From positions 1 to 41,333 of the forward strand of contig WHSL01000025.1 in the NCBI GenBank assembly GCA_009380095.1: DNA of 41,333 nucleotides, written 5' to 3'. This document shows, piece by piece, positions 15,493 through 22,411 of this stretch. The position numbers were made by a program, and so were the translations under genes. Every line of letters begins with the position of its first letter. Positions within the stretch are counted from its first letter, which is position 1. The notes under the pieces are model-generated. The model was not told the origin of the DNA. It saw nothing but the letters and a program-made list of their open reading frames with translations, and searched no databases. The stretch comes from Streptosporangiales bacterium. GTDB taxonomy: Bacteria > Actinomycetota > Actinomycetes > Streptosporangiales > Streptosporangiaceae.

Positions 15493-16365
15493 TCAGCGAA
15501 GGTGGCGGCGCATGGCGATGCCCACCGCCAGGCCGCCGGCGAGGGCCCCGAGGCTCGCGGCGGGCACGGCGATCTTGGAGGCGCTGCGCCCGGTACGGAA
15601 GTCGTGCACCGGCCACCCCATGTCCTTCGCGTGCTCCCGCAGGTCGGGGTCGGGGTTGACGGCGTGCGGGTGGCCCACCGCGGCGAGCATCGGCACGTCG
15701 TTGGCGGAGTCGCTGTACGCGGAGCAGCGCCGCAGGTCGAGACCCTCCCGCTCGGCGAGCGCGCGGATCGCCTCCGCCTTGGCGGGGCCGTGCAGCATGT
15801 CGCCGACGAGCCGGCCGGTATAGACACCGTCGACGTGCTCGGCGACGGTGCCGAGCGCGCCGGTGAGGCCGAGCCGGCGGGCGATGATGCGGGCGAGCTC
15901 CACCGGCGTCGCGGTGACGAGCCACACCCGCTGCCCCACGTCGAGGTGGCGCTGCGCCAGGTTGCGGGTGCCCTGCCAGACCCGGTCGGCCATGGTCTCG
16001 TCGTAGATCTCCTCGCACAGCTCGACGAGGTGGGCGACCTTGTGCCCGGCGACGAAGGAGAGCGCGGCCTCGCGCGCGGCCTGCATGTGGTCGGCGTTCT
16101 CGCTGCCGCTGGCGCGGAACACGACCTGGCCCCAGGCGAACCTCGCGAGGTCACGGGTGGTGAAGAGATCACGGGAGGCGAGGCCGCGGGCGAAGTGGTA
16201 GATCGACGCGCCCCGCATGATCGTGTTGTCGACATCGAAGAAGGCGGCCGCGGTCAGGTCGGGCTCGGGCGCCTCGACCGGCTCCGTCATCTCCGCCGCG
16301 GCTGCCGCGGCCTTGCCCGCGAGCTCGGCGCGCTCGCCGTCACGCCGCCGGATGAGCCCCTTCAT
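15493..16365 (-). CDS. HAD-IB family hydrolase (SerB-like) with C-terminal membrane anchor
   Basis: A 290-residue phosphatase of the HAD-IB (phosphoserine phosphatase-like) subfamily. The nucleophile motif is FFDVDNTIMRG (DxDxT), motif II is VWLVTATPVELA and motif IV is CSAYSDSANDVPML. The last about 25 residues (LGALAGGLAVGIAMRRH) form a hydrophobic helix with a basic end, typical of the actinobacterial HAD-IB proteins next to PlsC, so it may dephosphorylate a lipid-linked substrate at the membrane (inference). ATG 16365 lies 6 bases after TACCCT, so it is probably leaderless; no Shine-Dalgarno supports another start. Its stop abuts that of the acyltransferase. Confidence 0.88.
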   Translation of the reverse strand: MKGLIRRRDGERAELAGKAAAAAAEMTEPVEAPEPDLTAAAFFDVDNTIMRGASIYHFARGLASRDLFTTRDLARFAWGQVVFRASGSENADHMQAAREAALSFVAGHKVAHLVELCEEIYDETMADRVWQGTRNLAQRHLDVGQRVWLVTATPVELARIIARRLGLTGALGTVAEHVDGVYTGRLVGDMLHGPAKAEAIRALAEREGLDLRRCSAYSDSANDVPMLAAVGHPHAVNPDPDLREHAKDMGWPVHDFRTGRSASKIAVPAASLGALAGGLAVGIAMRRHLR

Positions 16366-16371
16366 ACCTTG

Positions 16372-16377
16372 AGGGTA
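16372..16377 (-). promoter_or_regulatory. -10 box TACCCT of the HAD gene
   Basis: TACCCT ends 6 bases before the ATG at 16365, consistent with a leaderless transcript and fixing the start. Confidence 0.5.
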
Positions 16378-16411
16378 AGCGGTCGCGTGAGTGCGCCGGG
16401 TGAAGTCTCGA

Positions 16412-16639
16412 TCAACGCGTGGGGACGACGTCGCGGCGGCCCGCCTCCGGCCGGGCGCACTCGCGGACCCGGGAAGCGGCGGGCGCGGCCGGGCCGGACC
16501 CCGGGCCCAGGTCGCCGAGCAGGTCGGTGAGCCGCAGCATGCGATCGAGCTCGGGGTCGCCGGACGGCGGACGTTCATCTCGGGGGACTTCGACCAGCAG
16601 CGCGAAGCGCTCCTCCTGCGTCGTCCGCCTCGTCGTCAT
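16412..16639 (-). CDS. Small protein resembling a truncated anti-sigma factor (DUF5667-like)
   Basis: Seventy-five residues, MTTRRTTQEERFALLVEVPR to VPTR. Residues 8-45 (EERFALLVEVPRDERPPSGD then PELDRMLRLTDLLGDLG) resemble the cytoplasmic sigma-binding start of DUF5667 and RsbN-type anti-sigma factors, which sit beside bldN in other actinomycetes, but the expected transmembrane helix and extracytoplasmic domain are missing. It lies just downstream of bldN on the same strand, the position of rsbN in Streptomyces. It may be a soluble, reduced anti-sigma factor or a gene in decay. No strong ribosome binding site is seen; similarity is by recalled pattern. Confidence 0.5.
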   Translation of the reverse strand: MTTRRTTQEERFALLVEVPRDERPPSGDPELDRMLRLTDLLGDLGPGSGPAAPAASRVRECARPEAGRRDVVPTR

Positions 16640-16760
16640 GCGCGCACACCCCTGCGTTCTCGGTGGGCCGCGCCCCCTCGGTGCGGCCACCATCACTTCG
16701 ACAACGATTCCCCGGCGCCCCGGTTACGGCACGGCCCGATGTGAGGTGTAACGCGGGAAC

Positions 16761-16884: not shown

Positions 16885-17505
16885 TTATGGCCCGAAATCG
16901 CTGGGAAGTCGCCGCGCGAGCGCGCGTACGGCCCGATACTGCAGCGCCTTGATCGCGCCCTCGTTCCGGCCCATGACCGCGGCGGTCTCCGCGAGGCTGA
17001 GTCCGTGCAGGAAGCGCAGCACGATGCACTCGCGCTGCGCCGGGCCCAGCCGGCCAAGCTCGCCGAGCACCGTACGGCGCGTGAACGCGTCCAGCACGCG
17101 GTCCTCCGGGCCCTCGCTGAGCGGGCCGTACGGCTCCGGCTCGAGCGGGTCGGCGATGCACACCTCGAGCCGGTGCCGGCCGGACTTGAAGTGGTCGATG
17201 ACGAGGTTCCTGGCGATCGTCATCAGCCAGGCGCCGAAGTCGGTGCCGCGCCAGGTGAAGCCGTCGATGCGGCGCAGCGCGCGCAGGAACGTCTCGCTGG
17301 CCAGGTCCTCGGCGAGTGCCCGGTCGCCGACCCGGAAGTAGATGAAGCGCTGGACCGGGGCGGCGTAGCGGGCGTACAGCAGGCCGAACGCCTCCGCGTC
17401 GCCGTCCCGGGCCCGGGCGATCAGCGCAGGGGCGTCCGCGTCCAGGTCCGCCGCGTACGACCCCCGGGCAGGGGTGTCGCCGGGAGCGGGGGCGCTGACG
17501 GACAT
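16885..17505 (-). CDS. bldN: ECF sigma factor BldN-like
   Basis: A 206-residue ECF sigma factor that directs RNA polymerase to developmental promoters. Region 2 (about 30-105) includes RFIYFRVGDRALAEDLASETF and DFGAWLMTIARNLVIDHFKS, and region 4 (140-200) includes RECIVLRFLHGLSLAETAAVMGRNEGAIKALQYRA. The FTWRGTDFGAWL and HFKSGRHRLEV stretches match Streptomyces BldN as I recall it. The start is ATG 17505 with AGGAGG 4 bases upstream; an in-frame ATG at 17562 would add 19 residues. Streptomyces BldN carries an extra N-terminal proprotein segment of about 86 residues, absent here, so processing probably does not apply. The usual partner is the membrane anti-sigma RsbN; only a stunted candidate lies next door. 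Confidence 0.87.
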   Translation of the reverse strand: MSVSAPAPGDTPARGSYAADLDADAPALIARARDGDAEAFGLLYARYAAPVQRFIYFRVGDRALAEDLASETFLRALRRIDGFTWRGTDFGAWLMTIARNLVIDHFKSGRHRLEVCIADPLEPEPYGPLSEGPEDRVLDAFTRRTVLGELGRLGPAQRECIVLRFLHGLSLAETAAVMGRNEGAIKALQYRAVRALARRLPSDFGP

Positions 17506-17570
17506 CGGTCCTCCTGGGGGCGGATTTCGGACATCGTAGGTACCGGCCAGTAACTTGAACAAGCCCCCAC

Positions 17571-17598
17571 GTGATTTAGTTCACGGTGACCGTATGAT
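17571..17598. promoter_or_regulatory. bldN divergent promoter region with GTGA-N6-TCAC repeat and -10 TATGAT
   Basis: GTGATTTAGTTCAC (17571-17584) is an inverted repeat, followed by the strong -10-like TATGAT at 17593-17598 pointing to the 7-TM gene. On the other strand TACGAT near 17530 could serve bldN. The repeat does not match the BldD box as I know it; another developmental regulator may bind. Confidence 0.4.
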
Positions 17599-17723: not shown

Positions 17724-19043
17724 ATGCTCGGGGTAGCAATCGCCTTCATCGGCGCCCTCGTGGCCTGGGTGGCCGCCGGGGCGCTGATCGGCCGCGCCTT
17801 CCGCGACCGCAGGCTCTTCCTGCTCGGCTGGGCCGGCGCGGGCCTCGGCCTGGCGGCCGCGCTCGGCGCCCAAGCGGTCGGGTACGTCGTCGGTTTCGGC
17901 CCGGCCCTGTTCCGGGCGATCCAGATCGGCGCGTCACTGCTGGCCCCGCTCTGGCTGGCCTGGGGCGCGGCGGAGCTCGTGATCCGGCAGATCCAGGGCC
18001 GCTTCGCGGCGCGGCTCCTCGTCGTCGCGCTCACCCTGGTGCCCGGCGTGACGCTGGCGCTGGACCCGTTGAAGGGCACGTTCGGCACCGAGTACCCGTC
18101 TCTCGGCGATCACTACCAGATCGTCCCCCGGTACGCCCTCATGGGCGTGCACGCGGTGGCGGTCGTCGCGCTCGTCGGGCTCACCCTCGCGGTCGCCATG
18201 CGTGTCCGCTCCGGGGACGAGGTGGCCTGGCCACAGGCGATCGCGGTCAGCCTGGCGAGCCTGGGCGGCGTCCTCGCGGTGATCAGCGCGCGGTTCTCGC
18301 TCGGCGCGATCGCCCCGCTGCTACTGCTCGTCGCGGCCTGCCTGCTCTGGTATGCGGCGATCCAGGCCACCGCGGAGGTGGCGGAGCGCGGGCGGCGCGG
18401 CCGGCGCGCGGCCGACCGGCGCTCCGACGACTACAAGTACGACGACGACTACTACGACGAGTACGACTACGAGGACGAGCATCCCCCGCGCCGCCGCGAG
18501 GGGCTGGACACCGACGCCGTCCCCGTCGCTCCCGCCCCGCCCGGCCACCCCGGCCAGCACGGCCCCCGCCCCGCCGGGGGCCCCATGGGCAACGGGGTGC
18601 CGGAGGGCGCGGCCTTCCCGCCCGCCCCGGCGGGCCCGGCCAAGCTGTCGGACTACGTGGCCGCGGCCTCGGCGCCGCCGGCCGGCCAGGGGGAGTCCCT
18701 CTCCCCGGACCTGTACGGCATGATCGCCGTCTTCACCCTGCAGGACGGGCACGGCGAGCCGTTCGACCGGCTCGCCGAGCAGGTCGTGGACGACGTACGG
18801 CGCAGTGAGCCGGACACGTTGATATTCGCGTGTCACCACGTGCCAAGCGCGCCCATGCAGCGGATCTTCTACCAGCTCTACCGGGACCGGGTCGCGTACG
18901 AGGAGCACGAGCGCAAGCCGTACGTGCAGCGCTTCCTCGAGGAGCGCCAGGCGCACGTACTGGCCACCAACGTGATAGAGCTGAAGATGACCTCGGCGAA
19001 GGTCTCCCCGGCGCTCCTCGGCGCGCTCACCGTGCGCCCCTGA
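17724..19043 (+). CDS. Seven-helix membrane protein fused to a C-terminal ABM-type domain
   Basis: A 439-residue protein. Seven transmembrane helices occupy residues about 1-22, 32-56, 66-90, 97-115, 137-160, 168-188 and 194-215. A cytoplasmic linker follows with a striking acidic-tyrosine run (DDYKYDDDYYDEYDYEDE, about 235-252) and a Pro/Gly-rich spacer. Residues about 329-423 (LYGMIAVFTLQDGHGEPFDR to LATNVIELKM) form an antibiotic biosynthesis monooxygenase (ABM, dimeric alpha/beta barrel) domain, which in other proteins oxidises quinols or degrades heme. ATG 17724 lies 7 bases after CATGAT, probably leaderless. It is transcribed divergently from bldN and ends 34 bases before a glutaredoxin-like gene. 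Function is unknown; quinone or redox sensing is a guess from the ABM fold. Confidence 0.75.
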   Translation: MLGVAIAFIGALVAWVAAGALIGRAFRDRRLFLLGWAGAGLGLAAALGAQAVGYVVGFGPALFRAIQIGASLLAPLWLAWGAAELVIRQIQGRFAARLLVVALTLVPGVTLALDPLKGTFGTEYPSLGDHYQIVPRYALMGVHAVAVVALVGLTLAVAMRVRSGDEVAWPQAIAVSLASLGGVLAVISARFSLGAIAPLLLLVAACLLWYAAIQATAEVAERGRRGRRAADRRSDDYKYDDDYYDEYDYEDEHPPRRREGLDTDAVPVAPAPPGHPGQHGPRPAGGPMGNGVPEGAAFPPAPAGPAKLSDYVAAASAPPAGQGESLSPDLYGMIAVFTLQDGHGEPFDRLAEQVVDDVRRSEPDTLIFACHHVPSAPMQRIFYQLYRDRVAYEEHERKPYVQRFLEERQAHVLATNVIELKMTSAKVSPALLGALTVRP

Positions 19044-19390: not shown

Positions 19391-19408
19391 TTGTGCGCGT
19401 GTTCACAA
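19391..19408 (+). promoter_or_regulatory. Rex operator (ROP) overlapping the rex promoter
   Basis: TTGTGCGCGTGTTCACAA is an inverted repeat matching the Streptomyces Rex box TGTGAAC-N3-TTCACA at 14 of 16 core positions counting the free ones. The same bases give a -35 (TTGTGC), 17-base spacer and -10 TAACCT (19414-19419). Rex bound here would block its own operon, released when NADH rises. Confidence 0.8.
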
Positions 19409-19462
19409 AGGAATAACCTGATGGGAAGTCCACATCGATTTCCCTCAGGAGCGTCGGCCCCC

Positions 19463-20149
19463 GTGACACGCCGTCCACAGCAGGCTCGCGAAAGAGGCAT
19501 ACCGGAGGCGACGGTGGCGCGGCTGCCGGTCTACCTCCGGGCCCTGCACGCGCTCGCCGAGCGCGGAGTCGCAACCGTGTCGTCCGAGGAGCTCGCCTCG
19601 GTCGCCGGGGTGAACTCGGCGAAGCTGCGCAAGGATCTGTCGCATCTGGGCTCGTACGGCACCCGCGGCGTGGGCTACGACGTCGAGTACCTCATCTACC
19701 AGATCTCCCGCGAGCTCGGCCTCACCCAGGACTGGGCGGTCGCGATCGTGGGTGTCGGTAACCTCGGCCGCGCCCTCGCCAACTACGGCGGCTTCGCCTC
19801 CCGCGGGTTCCGGATCGCGGCCCTGCTGGAGGCGGACACCTCCATCGTGGGGTCGCGCATCGCCGGCCTGGCGGTGGAGCACATCGACAAGCTCGAGGCG
19901 ACGGTCAAGCAGCACGGGGTGTCCATCGGCGTCATCGCCACCCCCGCGGCCGCCGCTCAGCAGGTGTGCGACAGGTTCGTCGCGGCGGGTGTGACGAGCG
20001 TCCTCAACTTCGCGCCTGTGGTGTTGACGGTCCCCGAGGGCGTGGATGTGCGTAAGGTCGACCTGTCCATCGAACTCCAGATCCTGGCGTTCCACGAACA
20101 ACGCAAGTCGGGCGCGGAACGCGAGTGGATCCAGGCGGTTGACGCATGA
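19463..20149 (+). CDS. rex: Redox-sensing transcriptional repressor Rex
   Basis: Rex binds DNA when NAD+ is abundant and leaves when NADH accumulates, derepressing respiration and heme genes. The 228-residue product has the N-terminal winged helix (SSEELASVAGVNSAKLRKDLSHLGSYGTRGVGY), the Rossmann loop GVGNLGRAL for NAD(H) and the C-terminal SIELQILAFHEQRK swapped helix. I chose GTG 19463 (AGGAG 11 bases upstream), since the upstream ATG at 19421 and TTG at 19391 would lie before the predicted transcription start or inside the operator. It opens the rex-hemA-hemC-hemD-hemB operon, as in Streptomyces, and overlaps hemA by 4 bases. Confidence 0.96.
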   Translation: MTRRPQQARERGIPEATVARLPVYLRALHALAERGVATVSSEELASVAGVNSAKLRKDLSHLGSYGTRGVGYDVEYLIYQISRELGLTQDWAVAIVGVGNLGRALANYGGFASRGFRIAALLEADTSIVGSRIAGLAVEHIDKLEATVKQHGVSIGVIATPAAAAQQVCDRFVAAGVTSVLNFAPVVLTVPEGVDVRKVDLSIELQILAFHEQRKSGAEREWIQAVDA

Positions 20150-21498
20150 GTTTGCTAGTCGTAGGCCTCAGTCATCGCAGCGCGCCGGTGAGCCTGCTGG
20201 AGCGCGCCGCCGTCACCGGTGATCGCGTCGCCAAGCTGCTGCGCGACATGCACTCGGCGGAGCCGGTCAGCGAGGCCATCCTGCTGTCCACCTGCAACCG
20301 GGTCGAGGTCTACGCCGAGATCGACAGGTTCCACGCCGGCGTGTCCGCGATATCGGAACTGATCGCGCAGTACGCCGAGGCCGGGCTGGACGAGCTCGCC
20401 AAGCACCTGTACGTGCACTACGAGGACCGTGCGGTGCAGCACATGTTCTCGGTGGCGTGCGGCCTGGACTCCATGGTCGTCGGGGAGGGCCAGATCCTCG
20501 GCCAGGTCCGCGAGGCGCTGAAGCTGGCGCAGGCGGAGGAGACCGCCGGGCGGGTGCTCAACGAGGTCGGCCAGCAGGCGCTGCGGGTCGGCAAGCGCGC
20601 GCACACCGAGACGCGCATCGACCAGGCCGGCGCGGACATGGTGACGGTGGCGCTGAGCGCCGCGGCGCGCCAACTGGGCCCGCTGGCCGGGCTGCGCGCG
20701 CTGGTGGTGGGCGCCGGCTCGATGAGCGCGCTGGCCGCCAACACGCTGGCGCGCGGCGGGGTCGGGGAGGTCGCGGTGGCCAACCGCACCCCGGAGCGCG
20801 CGGAGCGGCTCGCCGAGTGCCTCGGCTCCGCGTACGACGAAGTCGTCGGCAGGGCGGTGCCGTTCGACGCGATCGGCCCCGCGCTCGCCGAGGCCGACCT
20901 GGTGATCTCCTGTACCGGAGCACAGGGCGTGGTCATCTCTGAGGAGACCGTACGGACCGCGCGGCACGGCCGGGAGGCGCCGCTGGTGCTGCTGGACCTG
21001 GCGCTGCCGCACGACGTGGACCCAGCCGTGGGAGACCTGCCGGGCGTGACGCTGGTGGATCTGTCCCGGCTGCAGGTGGCCTCGGCCGGCGGCGAGGGGC
21101 AGACCGTCACCGCCGACGACGTCGCCGCCGTGCAACGGATCGTGTCGGAGGAGGTCACGGCGTATCTTGGGGAGCAGCGCAAGGCGCGCGTCGCTCCCAC
21201 CGTGGTGGCGCTGCGCGCCCGGGCCACGGGGGTCGTCGAGGCGGAGCTGGCGCGGCTGCTCGGCCGCCTGCCCGAGCTCGACGAACGCGCGCGTGCGGAG
21301 GTCACCCAGGCGCTCCGCCGCACCGCGGACAAGATATTGCATCAGCCGACCGTCCGGGTGAAGGAGCTCGCGGGCTCACCGGACGGAGCCGGCTACGAGA
21401 CCGCCCTGCGCGAGCTGTTCGACCTCGACCCGAAGGCACCCGAGGCCGTGGCCCGCGTAGAGCTCCCCGGAGAGGACGAGGCCTGTGACCGACGGTGA
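20146..21498 (+). CDS. hemA: Glutamyl-tRNA reductase
   Basis: Reduces glutamyl-tRNA to glutamate-1-semialdehyde with NADPH, the committed step of C5-pathway tetrapyrrole synthesis. The 450-residue protein has GLSHRSAPVSLLER, catalytic Cys50 in STCNRVE, VACGLDSMVVGEGQILGQV, the NADPH Rossmann loop VVGAGSMSALAA with VANRTPERAERLA, and a C-terminal helical dimerisation domain with LLGRLPELDERARAEV. Start ATG 20146 overlaps the rex stop (ATGA). Family members from actinomycetes have a slightly longer C-terminus, seen here. Its product feeds HemL, encoded 8.5 kb away at 30012. Confidence 0.97.
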   Translation: MSLLVVGLSHRSAPVSLLERAAVTGDRVAKLLRDMHSAEPVSEAILLSTCNRVEVYAEIDRFHAGVSAISELIAQYAEAGLDELAKHLYVHYEDRAVQHMFSVACGLDSMVVGEGQILGQVREALKLAQAEETAGRVLNEVGQQALRVGKRAHTETRIDQAGADMVTVALSAAARQLGPLAGLRALVVGAGSMSALAANTLARGGVGEVAVANRTPERAERLAECLGSAYDEVVGRAVPFDAIGPALAEADLVISCTGAQGVVISEETVRTARHGREAPLVLLDLALPHDVDPAVGDLPGVTLVDLSRLQVASAGGEGQTVTADDVAAVQRIVSEEVTAYLGEQRKARVAPTVVALRARATGVVEAELARLLGRLPELDERARAEVTQALRRTADKILHQPTVRVKELAGSPDGAGYETALRELFDLDPKAPEAVARVELPGEDEACDRR

Positions 21499-22411
21499 GC
21501 GGCCGCTGCGGCTGGGCACCCGCCGCAGCCTGATGGCCATGACGCAGTCCCAGGCGGTGGCCGACGAGCTGACCCGCCGGACCGGCAGGGCCGTCGAGCT
21601 CGTCGGCGTGACCACGTACGGGGACGTCACGCGCACCCATCTGGCTCAGCTCGGCGGCACCGGCGTGTTCGTCAACGCGCTTCGCGACAGGCTGCTCACC
21701 GGCGAGATCGACTTCGCCGTGCACTCGCTGAAGGACCTGCCCACCAAGCCGGCCGACGGGGTCGCGATGGCCGCGCTGCCGGCCCGGGACGACCCGCGGG
21801 ACGCGCTGATCGCCCGGGACGGCGCGAAGCTGGCCGACCTTCCCGCCGGCGGGACGGTGGGCACCGGCTCGCCGCGCCGCGTCGCGCAGCTGCGGCGGCT
21901 CCGGCCCGACCTGGCGTACGTGCCGATCCGGGGCAACGCGGACACCCGGCTCGGCAAGGTCCACGCGGGCGAGCTGGACGCGGTCGTGCTCGCGTACGCG
22001 GGCCTGGCCCGGATCGGCCGGCTGGACGAGGTCACGGAGGCGTTCGACACCGACGCGCTGCTGCCCGCGCCCGGCCAGGGCAGCCTGGCCGTGGAGTGCG
22101 TCTCCGGCTGCCCCGGCCTCATCGATCTTCTCGCGGTCATCGACGACGCGTCCACCCGGGCCGCCGTGACCGCGGAACGAGCCGTGCTCGCCACCCTCGA
22201 GGCCGGCTGCTCCGCCCCCGTGGGGGCGTACGCGGTCGTCCACGACGGGGCCGTGCACCTGCGGGCGGTGGCCGTCTCCACCGACGGCGGCACCGCCGTA
22301 CGTATGGCGAGGAGCGGTCCTCCCACCCAGGCCGAGCAGCTGGGACGCGCCCTCGCGTCCGAGATGCTCGCGCAGGGGGCCGCCGAACTGATCGGGGAGC
22401 CCGCCCGTTGA
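21485..22411 (+). CDS. hemC: Hydroxymethylbilane synthase (porphobilinogen deaminase)
   Basis: Joins four porphobilinogen molecules into hydroxymethylbilane. The 308-residue protein has LGTRRSLMAMTQSQ, the catalytic Asp84 region IDFAVHSLKDLP, GTGSPRRVAQLRRLRPDL, the RGNADTRLGK segment that binds substrate carboxylates, and Cys242 (LEAGCSAPVGAYA), which carries the dipyrromethane cofactor. GTG 21485 starts within the last 14 bases of hemA, and the TGA overlaps the following TTG. It is translationally coupled in the operon. Confidence 0.97.
   Translation: MTDGERPLRLGTRRSLMAMTQSQAVADELTRRTGRAVELVGVTTYGDVTRTHLAQLGGTGVFVNALRDRLLTGEIDFAVHSLKDLPTKPADGVAMAALPARDDPRDALIARDGAKLADLPAGGTVGTGSPRRVAQLRRLRPDLAYVPIRGNADTRLGKVHAGELDAVVLAYAGLARIGRLDEVTEAFDTDALLPAPGQGSLAVECVSGCPGLIDLLAVIDDASTRAAVTAERAVLATLEAGCSAPVGAYAVVHDGAVHLRAVAVSTDGGTAVRMARSGPPTQAEQLGRALASEMLAQGAAELIGEPAR

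Follow-up and report, generated by a model that had tools for sequence, protein, structure and literature searches.

Background

Rex is the textbook soluble redox sensor, reading NADH/NAD+ in the cytoplasm. Bacterial sensors with seven transmembrane (7TM) helices exist, the HemX protein of the Bacillus hem operon is a precedent for membrane control of HemA or tetrapyrrole flux, and the haem oxygenases IsdG and MhuD rely on an Asn-Trp-His catalytic triad. According to excerpts of its description, BtsS is a bacterial 7TM receptor with its N-terminus outside, whose pyruvate ligand is held by arginines from helices III and IV (PMC10653868). In the excerpts on Streptomyces avermitilis, deletion of rex delays morphogenesis (PMC5355995). 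Extracts of a comparative study confine convincing matches to the sigma factor BldN to morphologically complex genera (PMC4255298), and SepX is described, again in excerpts, as having three TM segments and two largely disordered cytoplasmic regions (PMC8748795). In the open-licence literature searched, we met nothing on a protein combining a 7TM domain with an ABM domain, or on a membrane partner of Rex.

Here we describe such a 7TM-ABM gene in a stretch of 41,333 nucleotides from a Streptosporangiales bacterium (contig WHSL01000025.1; hereafter the window). An initial annotation, made from the sequence alone, had noticed the gene beside a bldN-like sigma factor gene and redox-linked genes, and had proposed a membrane redox sensor for development.

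Results

The fusion gene (positions 17724-19043, forward strand) encodes 439 aa from an ATG start. Divergent from it lies a gene for a BldN-family ECF sigma factor (16885..17562, reverse strand, likely ATG at 17502), followed by a HAD-family hydrolase gene (15493..16578, reverse strand) whose true start is probably inside the ORF. Downstream, on the forward strand, are genes for a glutaredoxin-like protein (Glrx; PF05768, 19078..19323, identified by Pfam and by the locus survey), for the redox-sensing repressor Rex (19391..20149, a mechanical ORF assigned by Pfam and NCBIfam), for glutamyl-tRNA reductase (hemA, 20146..21498) and for hydroxymethylbilane synthase (hemC, 21485..22411). The rex-hem arrangement and the type of operator upstream of rex are the same as in the Streptomyces rex-hem operon, as far as the excerpts of PMC5355995 describe it.

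Searching named genomes yielded 290 relatives, the best 80 of which were analysed; they come from Actinomadura, Nonomuraea, Nocardiopsis, Thermomonospora, Planotetraspora, Microtetraspora and other genera. The survey of these 80 loci covered at most 7 kb on each side, some regions being truncated by contig ends. The HAD hydrolase was found at 77 loci, Glrx, Rex and HemA at 70 each, and HemC at 69. Glrx is encoded on the same strand as the fusion gene in 45 loci and on the opposite strand in 25. The centre of gravity of this neighbourhood is Rex and haem, not BldN. The redox-linked neighbours pointed out in the initial annotation thus recur, and the 7TM gene itself recurs beside rex across the phylum, as detailed below.

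Three parts can be distinguished in the protein. Residues 1-225 (17724..18398) form the seven-helix membrane domain, delimited by AlphaFold2, fold searches, relatives and loop charges; residues 226-328 (18399..18707) form a linker predicted to be disordered from its low pLDDT and from length variation among homologues; and residues 329-426 (18708..19001) form the ABM domain, defined by Pfam, its fold and an alignment of 39 family members. AlphaFold2, run on the family alignment, gave a pLDDT of 81.4 for the whole protein, and of 96.8 (pTM 0.91) for the 7TM part alone. Helices were modelled at residues 2-28, 31-56, 60-86, 90-113, 133-162, 168-190 and 196-235, the seventh extending past the domain boundary at 225 to about residue 235, and an alpha-beta domain at residues 331-421. 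The pLDDT of the linker is below 50 across most of residues 238-326, and linker length ranges from 36 to 305 residues (median 79) in the 39 aligned members. An Asp/Tyr-rich acidic stretch (residues 234-252; 18423..18479) reaches 18 D/E/Y per 25 residues in the translation, and a 25-mer with at least 12 D/E/Y occurs in 18 of the 39 members, the window protein included. Pfam, AlphaFold2 and the translation agree with the anatomy first described for this protein (seven-helix unit, acidic stretch, ABM barrel); the D/Y-rich tail is present in the window protein but is not a general character of the family.

In the otherwise disordered linkers of Nonomuraea/Planotetraspora-type homologues, we also observed a short conserved motif around GLGDLVAEYRAGE (loci L011, L013, L015, L016, L021-L023, L025, L026, L048-L050 and L052). 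It is possibly a protein-binding motif.

The 7TM domain

The N-terminal half of the window protein matched no Pfam or NCBIfam family at cut-off, nor did any of ten 7TM relatives scanned; neither database has a name for the 7TM family. Among PDB structures, the 50 listed as similar to the 7TM model comprise GPCRs, GPR155/LYCHOS, which is GPCR-like, and designed folds of GPCR type (VIA Z 14.1-16.4, rmsd mostly 3.1-4 Å over about 200 residues), these being among the matches listed, so that other membrane families may fit too. Foldseek alone gave weaker results (best E 6.7e-3). As helical bundles can score 13-14 by VIA through common arrangement alone, the likeness to GPCRs is one of topology, not homology. 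No GPCR family appears among the Pfam matches listed for the window protein, the 39 members and the ten relatives. The modelled likeness implies no function and may be convergence.

Loop charges were averaged over the 39 members. The inside loops carry 2.33, 1.41 and 2.36 Lys/Arg against 0.56, 0.72 and 1.18 Asp/Glu, and the large outer loop carries 1.44 Lys/Arg against 2.62 Asp/Glu; the charge rule is broken by the third outer loop (0.56 against 0.33) and by the acidic C-tail (2.72 against 3.51). On balance, a GPCR-like N-out/C-in topology is predicted from the model and these charges. Two charged residues, R64 at the outer end of helix 3 and D114 at the outer end of helix 4, are invariant in the fused form; in 17 non-fused relatives the former is Arg in ten and the latter Asp in three. 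Conservation differs little between the outer half of the bundle and the inner one (entropy 1.70 versus 1.86 in the fused form, 1.82 versus 1.70 in the relatives). In the 7TM part, no position holds a His or Cys conserved in at least 35 of the 39 aligned members, which makes a haem- or thiol-based centre within the bundle unlikely.

Among described 7TM sensors, the LytS-type BtsS shares with the window protein seven helices, an outside N-terminus and outer-side charged residues in helices 3 and 4, as given in the excerpts of PMC10653868. Unlike BtsS, the window protein has no kinase domain, and the two are likened by fold features, not by sequence. The HisKA_7TM family (PF16927) is also similar in its seven helices and differs by the kinase, absent here. 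Profile comparisons with HisKA_7TM using three alignments gave probabilities of 3.8, 72.7 (200 columns) and 1.3; the family is absent from the 23 Pfam families that the 39 members together matched at E <= 1, has one match among the ten relatives (E 0.48, 10.7 bits, cut-off 28.6), and has no match in the window's own genome at E <= 0.001. 7TMR-DISM (PF07695), likewise of the bacterial 7TM signalling class, gave weak matches: the best among the ten relatives (16.2 bits) is below the cut-off of 29, one of the 39 members matched at E 0.036, and the profile comparison, a weak one with an alignment of three sequences, gave 0.1. Identity with SepX was considered and ruled out, the seven helices here contrasting with the three TM segments given for SepX in the excerpts of PMC8748795.

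Searching with a profile built on the 7TM domains of 31 fusion proteins retrieved relatives from other parts of the phylum, the best at 1.6e-18. Conversely, a profile from 17 relatives only, four of them cut at an internal start in the alignment, finds the window 7TM at 5.5e-9 (positions 3-223 of 233) and has matches in 115 of the 396 Actinomycetota genomes sampled, one of them the window's own. These reciprocal searches link the fused and non-fused forms; the 7TM half is homologous to proteins that have no ABM domain. Residues W36, G53, F63, G81 and P125 are largely common to the fused form and the 17 relatives. Most open frames of the relatives span 210-350 residues, extra domains not having been ruled out one by one in the 114 other genomes, and no known output domain was found in the relatives without ABM. 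Among 80 of these 114 genomes, a set differing from the 80 used for the Rex lookup below, the fused type of ABM was found in 11 genomes at 14 places, none on the same contig as the 7TM gene. As the relatives elsewhere in the phylum occur without ABM, the fusion seems to be a local addition to an older membrane protein.

Within the GTDB family of the window, the fusion occurs widely, at one locus, in genera such as Actinomadura, Nonomuraea and Nocardiopsis. At least a partial match was obtained in 35 of 36 other same-family genomes, the miss being a genome 74% complete; only the ABM part was matched in one genome (G014) and only the N-terminal part in another (G028). In an even draw of 296 genomes of the class, 31 match the 7TM part, 28 from the same family (the window's own included) and three from one other family, with 245 unmatched genomes of the draw unlisted and possibly including same-family misses. 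Two loci read from that other family have no ABM. Elsewhere in the order, genome G037, from a second family, carries the fusion next to the sigma factor, Glrx and Rex genes, and three genomes of a third family (G038-G040) yielded one match, to the ABM part only. Within the genomes searched, the ABM fusion is confined to the Streptosporangiales lineage. The ABM part of the Nonomuraea gerenzanensis homologue lies at 1116026-1116382 of NZ_LT559118.1, where no gene is listed in an incomplete plasmid-collection table; that record is of chromosome size (11.85 Mb).

The ABM domain

The ABM profile (PF03992, cut-off 23.1 bits) matches the whole window protein at 24.5 bits (residues 332-406) and its C-terminal part alone at 27.4 bits, and is matched at E <= 1 in all 39 members of the family alignment, the window protein included. 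The model of this domain shows a ferredoxin-like alpha-beta fold, with Foldseek E-values as low as 2.2e-5, a TMt above 0.75 for most single-domain chains, and VIA Z of 14.4-15.4 among the matches listed. Profile and fold searches thus bear out the ABM identity originally proposed from the sequence alone. The likeness to known ABM proteins (LsrG, PA3566 and putative quinol monooxygenases) lies in the fold and the above-cut-off profile match; unlike them, the window ABM is the C-terminal part of a membrane protein. Neither IsdG nor MhuD is named among the ten PDB sequences used for the ABM comparison.

Compared with 12 standalone ABMs taken from genomes of the class, the window ABM shows 30-46% identity. 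Seven residues (H371, R380, Y383, R387, D388, H395 and N416) are invariant in the 39 aligned members, H371 and H395 being common to all 12 standalone ABMs as well. The fused ABM has its own C-terminal strand, with N416, I418 and L420 invariant in the 39. Unlike the standalone ABMs, all of which have Glu at position 384, the fused copies have Glu in 17, Ala in 17 and another residue in five; the position of N416 is acidic in ten of the 12 standalone ABMs. With Glu384 lost in 22 of the 39 fused copies, catalysis in the fused form is possible but not uniformly expected from the alignment.

These observations bear on a possible, rather unlikely, alternative to a receptor, namely a membrane-tethered enzyme: the ABM domain would work without a cofactor, as a monooxygenase or isomerase whose hydrophobic substrate would be a quinol or a polyketide-like compound, with the 7TM part anchoring it at the membrane and supplying that substrate. 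LsrG and proteins annotated as putative quinol monooxygenases are indeed among the ABM relatives, and the six invariant residues from H371 to H395 and the identity to the standalone proteins would suit an enzyme. Against this stand the frequent loss of Glu384, the asparagine at 416 where most standalone ABMs are acidic, the occurrence of the 7TM protein without ABM elsewhere and the absence of all 14 separate ABM places from the 7TM contig.

The rex neighbourhood across the phylum

Of the 114 other genomes with a 7TM match, the first 80 in handle order were searched for Rex. It was found in 74, the remaining six being without Rex at the threshold used. The 7TM and rex genes are on one contig in 42 genomes, less than 10 kb apart in 37 of them and 21-361 kb apart in five, and on different contigs in 32; in two genomes of family f88 they are about 360 kb apart. 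The 37 close pairs fall in 11 of 29 families, a fairer count than that of genomes because same-family genomes are not independent. In the other 18 families, many of whose assemblies are fragmented, no pair within 10 kb was found. By our estimate, the chance for a random gene to lie less than 10 kb from rex is about 1 in 100 or fewer in a 2-4 Mb genome. The 7TM gene is a recurrent neighbour of rex beyond one order.

In 32 of the 37 pairs the 7TM gene is upstream on the rex strand; the other five pairs are divergent, with 71-187 bases between matches. We read in detail these five and 15 of the 32 co-directional pairs, the latter mostly with short gaps. A Rex-operator-like site is present in all five divergent pairs (2, 3, 2, 4 and 2 mismatches of 14), between the matches in four and overlapping the first bases of the rex match in the fifth (L269); shuffles gave 0.36 of 20 at four or fewer mismatches. 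The divergent pairs sharing an operator-like site with rex represent two families. Before the 7TM gene of the 15 co-directional pairs there is no site with fewer than six mismatches; ten of these pairs have a site with at most four before rex. In nine of the 15, the 7TM and rex genes flank a Glrx homologue. Neighbouring genes were called with a rough ORF finder before the Pfam scans, in which three of 20 proteins matched no family.

Three further loci add other neighbours. At L231 (6461-8198), an ABM-less 7TM gene is followed by genes for a DsbD_TM protein of CcdA type and for a Glrx-like one; the Rex lookup gave no match in that genome. At L224 the 7TM gene and hemA are divergent with about 0.75 kb between them, no Rex being detected in the genome, and at L228 the 7TM gene is beside genes for Glrx and a class-III aminotransferase, perhaps hemL. 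The last two loci, and the presence of hemA and hemC after rex at 70 and 69 of the 80 named loci, are what one would expect of a haem-supply regulator, that is, a membrane protein controlling HemA or tetrapyrrole flux in the manner of HemX, with the ABM as a haem-sensing or haem-handling tail. We consider this explanation improbable, given a 7TM part without widely conserved His or Cys and five divergent pairs that tie the 7TM gene to rex itself.

Regulatory sites

A Rex-operator-like site TTGTGCGCGTGTTCACAA (19391..19408, forward strand) differs at two of 14 positions from the consensus given in the excerpts of PMC5355995. It lies inside the mechanical rex ORF, so that the true rex start is probably downstream. 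Such a site, with at most three mismatches, precedes rex in all 70 loci of the window's family that have rex, while none at this level arose in shuffles and the regions upstream of hemC, read in 69 loci, gave none with fewer than five mismatches. Before the fusion gene, matches to the Rex operator are not above shuffle level in the 80 loci: the best site has 4, 5, 6 or 7 mismatches in 7, 9, 37 and 27 loci, against about 2, 12, 45 and 21 after shuffling. The seven sites with four mismatches were rejected as Rex operators, because they belong to another repeat, that of the Nocardiopsis lineage.

In the window, an inverted repeat CGTGATTTAGTTCACG of the GTGA-N6-TCAC type is found at 17570..17585 (forward strand), 154 bases before the start codon. 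We take this repeat to resemble a CRP/FNR-type site. Of 123 upstream regions, 29 contain it, where 0.4 would be expected; these belong to the window and to every one of the 28 Nocardiopsis-lineage loci in the set (within L006-L046 and L083-L138), some of which represent the same or a near-identical species twice, the lineage loci L019, L035 and L044 having been left out for want of an N-terminal BLAST match. In 25 of the 28 the repeat is 122-126 bases upstream, and in the others 133, 135 and 167. The half-sites are invariant and the flanks on average 51-55% identical. From this conservation, the repeat of the Nocardiopsis lineage looks like a conserved CRP/FNR-like operator, which could serve the divergent gene instead. 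As none of the 63 sigma-bearing named loci has the repeat, its occurrence in the window may be due to chance.

The question of BldN

A bldN-like sigma factor gene is divergent from the fusion gene in 63 of the 80 named loci. The 17 loci without it are ten of the Nocardiopsis lineage and seven others. Fourteen fusion-bearing genomes were selected, 12 of them for the absence of the sigma factor gene beside the fusion gene; 12 of the 14 are without a bldN orthologue (37% identity at best, or no match), and a sigma factor at 60% identity was found in G004 and G005 only. Rex is present in all 12 genomes with the Nocardiopsis-type layout, on the contig of the fusion gene in 11, at 11-18 kb. The best NCBIfam match of the window sigma factor is BldN, at 171.5 bits, below the cut-off of 206.45. 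The sigma factor of genome G057, to which that of the window is 58.7% identical, passes the BldN cut-off (262); the 7TM-ABM gene is missing from the G057 locus, and in that genome, which has Rex, no 7TM relative was found. Rex can therefore do without the 7TM protein.

The sigma factor gene is thus a frequent neighbour, not a required partner. A developmental membrane protein working with the BldN sigma factor, or a divisome-type scaffold, is very improbable and largely refuted as a general function, despite the divergent gene at most named loci and the morphogenesis phenotype of rex excerpted from PMC5355995, because the sigma factor is missing at the loci and in the genomes just described, because the 7TM family extends well beyond the morphologically complex genera with convincing BldN in the extracts of PMC4255298, and, for a scaffold, because SepX, as excerpted, combines three TM segments with disordered loops (PMC8748795). 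The link to development proposed in the initial annotation does not hold as a general statement, all the less as the 7TM gene lies by rex without the ABM fusion elsewhere in the phylum. The redox half of the proposed membrane redox sensor agrees with the rex neighbourhood, and the 7TM-ABM protein may have such a function; the developmental half fails as a general rule.

Downstream of the window sigma factor gene, at the place expected for rsbN, we observed an ORF of 93-94 aa (16412-16696, reverse strand). Its start resembles an anti-sigma domain by eye, it has no obvious membrane segment, and tblastn found no match to it in the 80 named loci.

Discussion

The reading we prefer, to which we would give nearly an even chance, is that this gene is the Streptosporangiales form of an ancient unnamed seven-helix protein of the Rex-glutaredoxin-haem locus, an N-out/C-in receptor coupled to a cytoplasmic ABM domain. 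The predicted topology, the R64/D114 pair and the precedent of BtsS would favour a receptor over a transporter or an enzyme anchor, a choice that we make with modest confidence. Several findings weigh against this reading: D114 is rare in the non-fused relatives, neither half of the bundle is clearly the better conserved, two segments break the charge rule, the relatives without ABM show no known output domain, 18 of 29 families yielded no close 7TM-rex pair, operator-like sites shared with the 7TM gene are confined to the five divergent pairs among those read, and G057 has Rex with no 7TM relative found. The 7TM receptor, its N-terminus outside, would bind a small extracytoplasmic or membrane-dissolved molecule reporting the respiratory or redox state. 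R64 and D114 would mark the likely pocket, by analogy with the helix III and IV arginines in the excerpted description of BtsS. The receptor state would then be relayed inside, alongside the reading of cytoplasmic NADH/NAD+ by Rex. In Streptosporangiales the leashed cytoplasmic ABM barrel would be the output or a second ligand-binding module; the leash being disordered and of very variable length, the ABM would probably act via local concentration or dimerisation rather than by rigid coupling.

A broader proposal, possible but doubtful, is that receptors of this GPCR-like topology form the membrane arm of the Rex circuit in Actinomycetota, reading a respiration signal in the membrane or outside, for example the quinone state, and that the ABM was gained in Streptosporangiales. 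The Rex and 7TM inputs would thereby be written into one locus together with glutaredoxin and haem synthesis. Structurally, the protein adds a seven-helix family of GPCR-like topology, as yet without a name in Pfam or NCBIfam, to those of bacteria. For the biology of Actinomycetota, a 7TM gene conserved at the rex locus in at least 11 families is a candidate membrane or respiratory-chain input to NADH sensing and haem supply.
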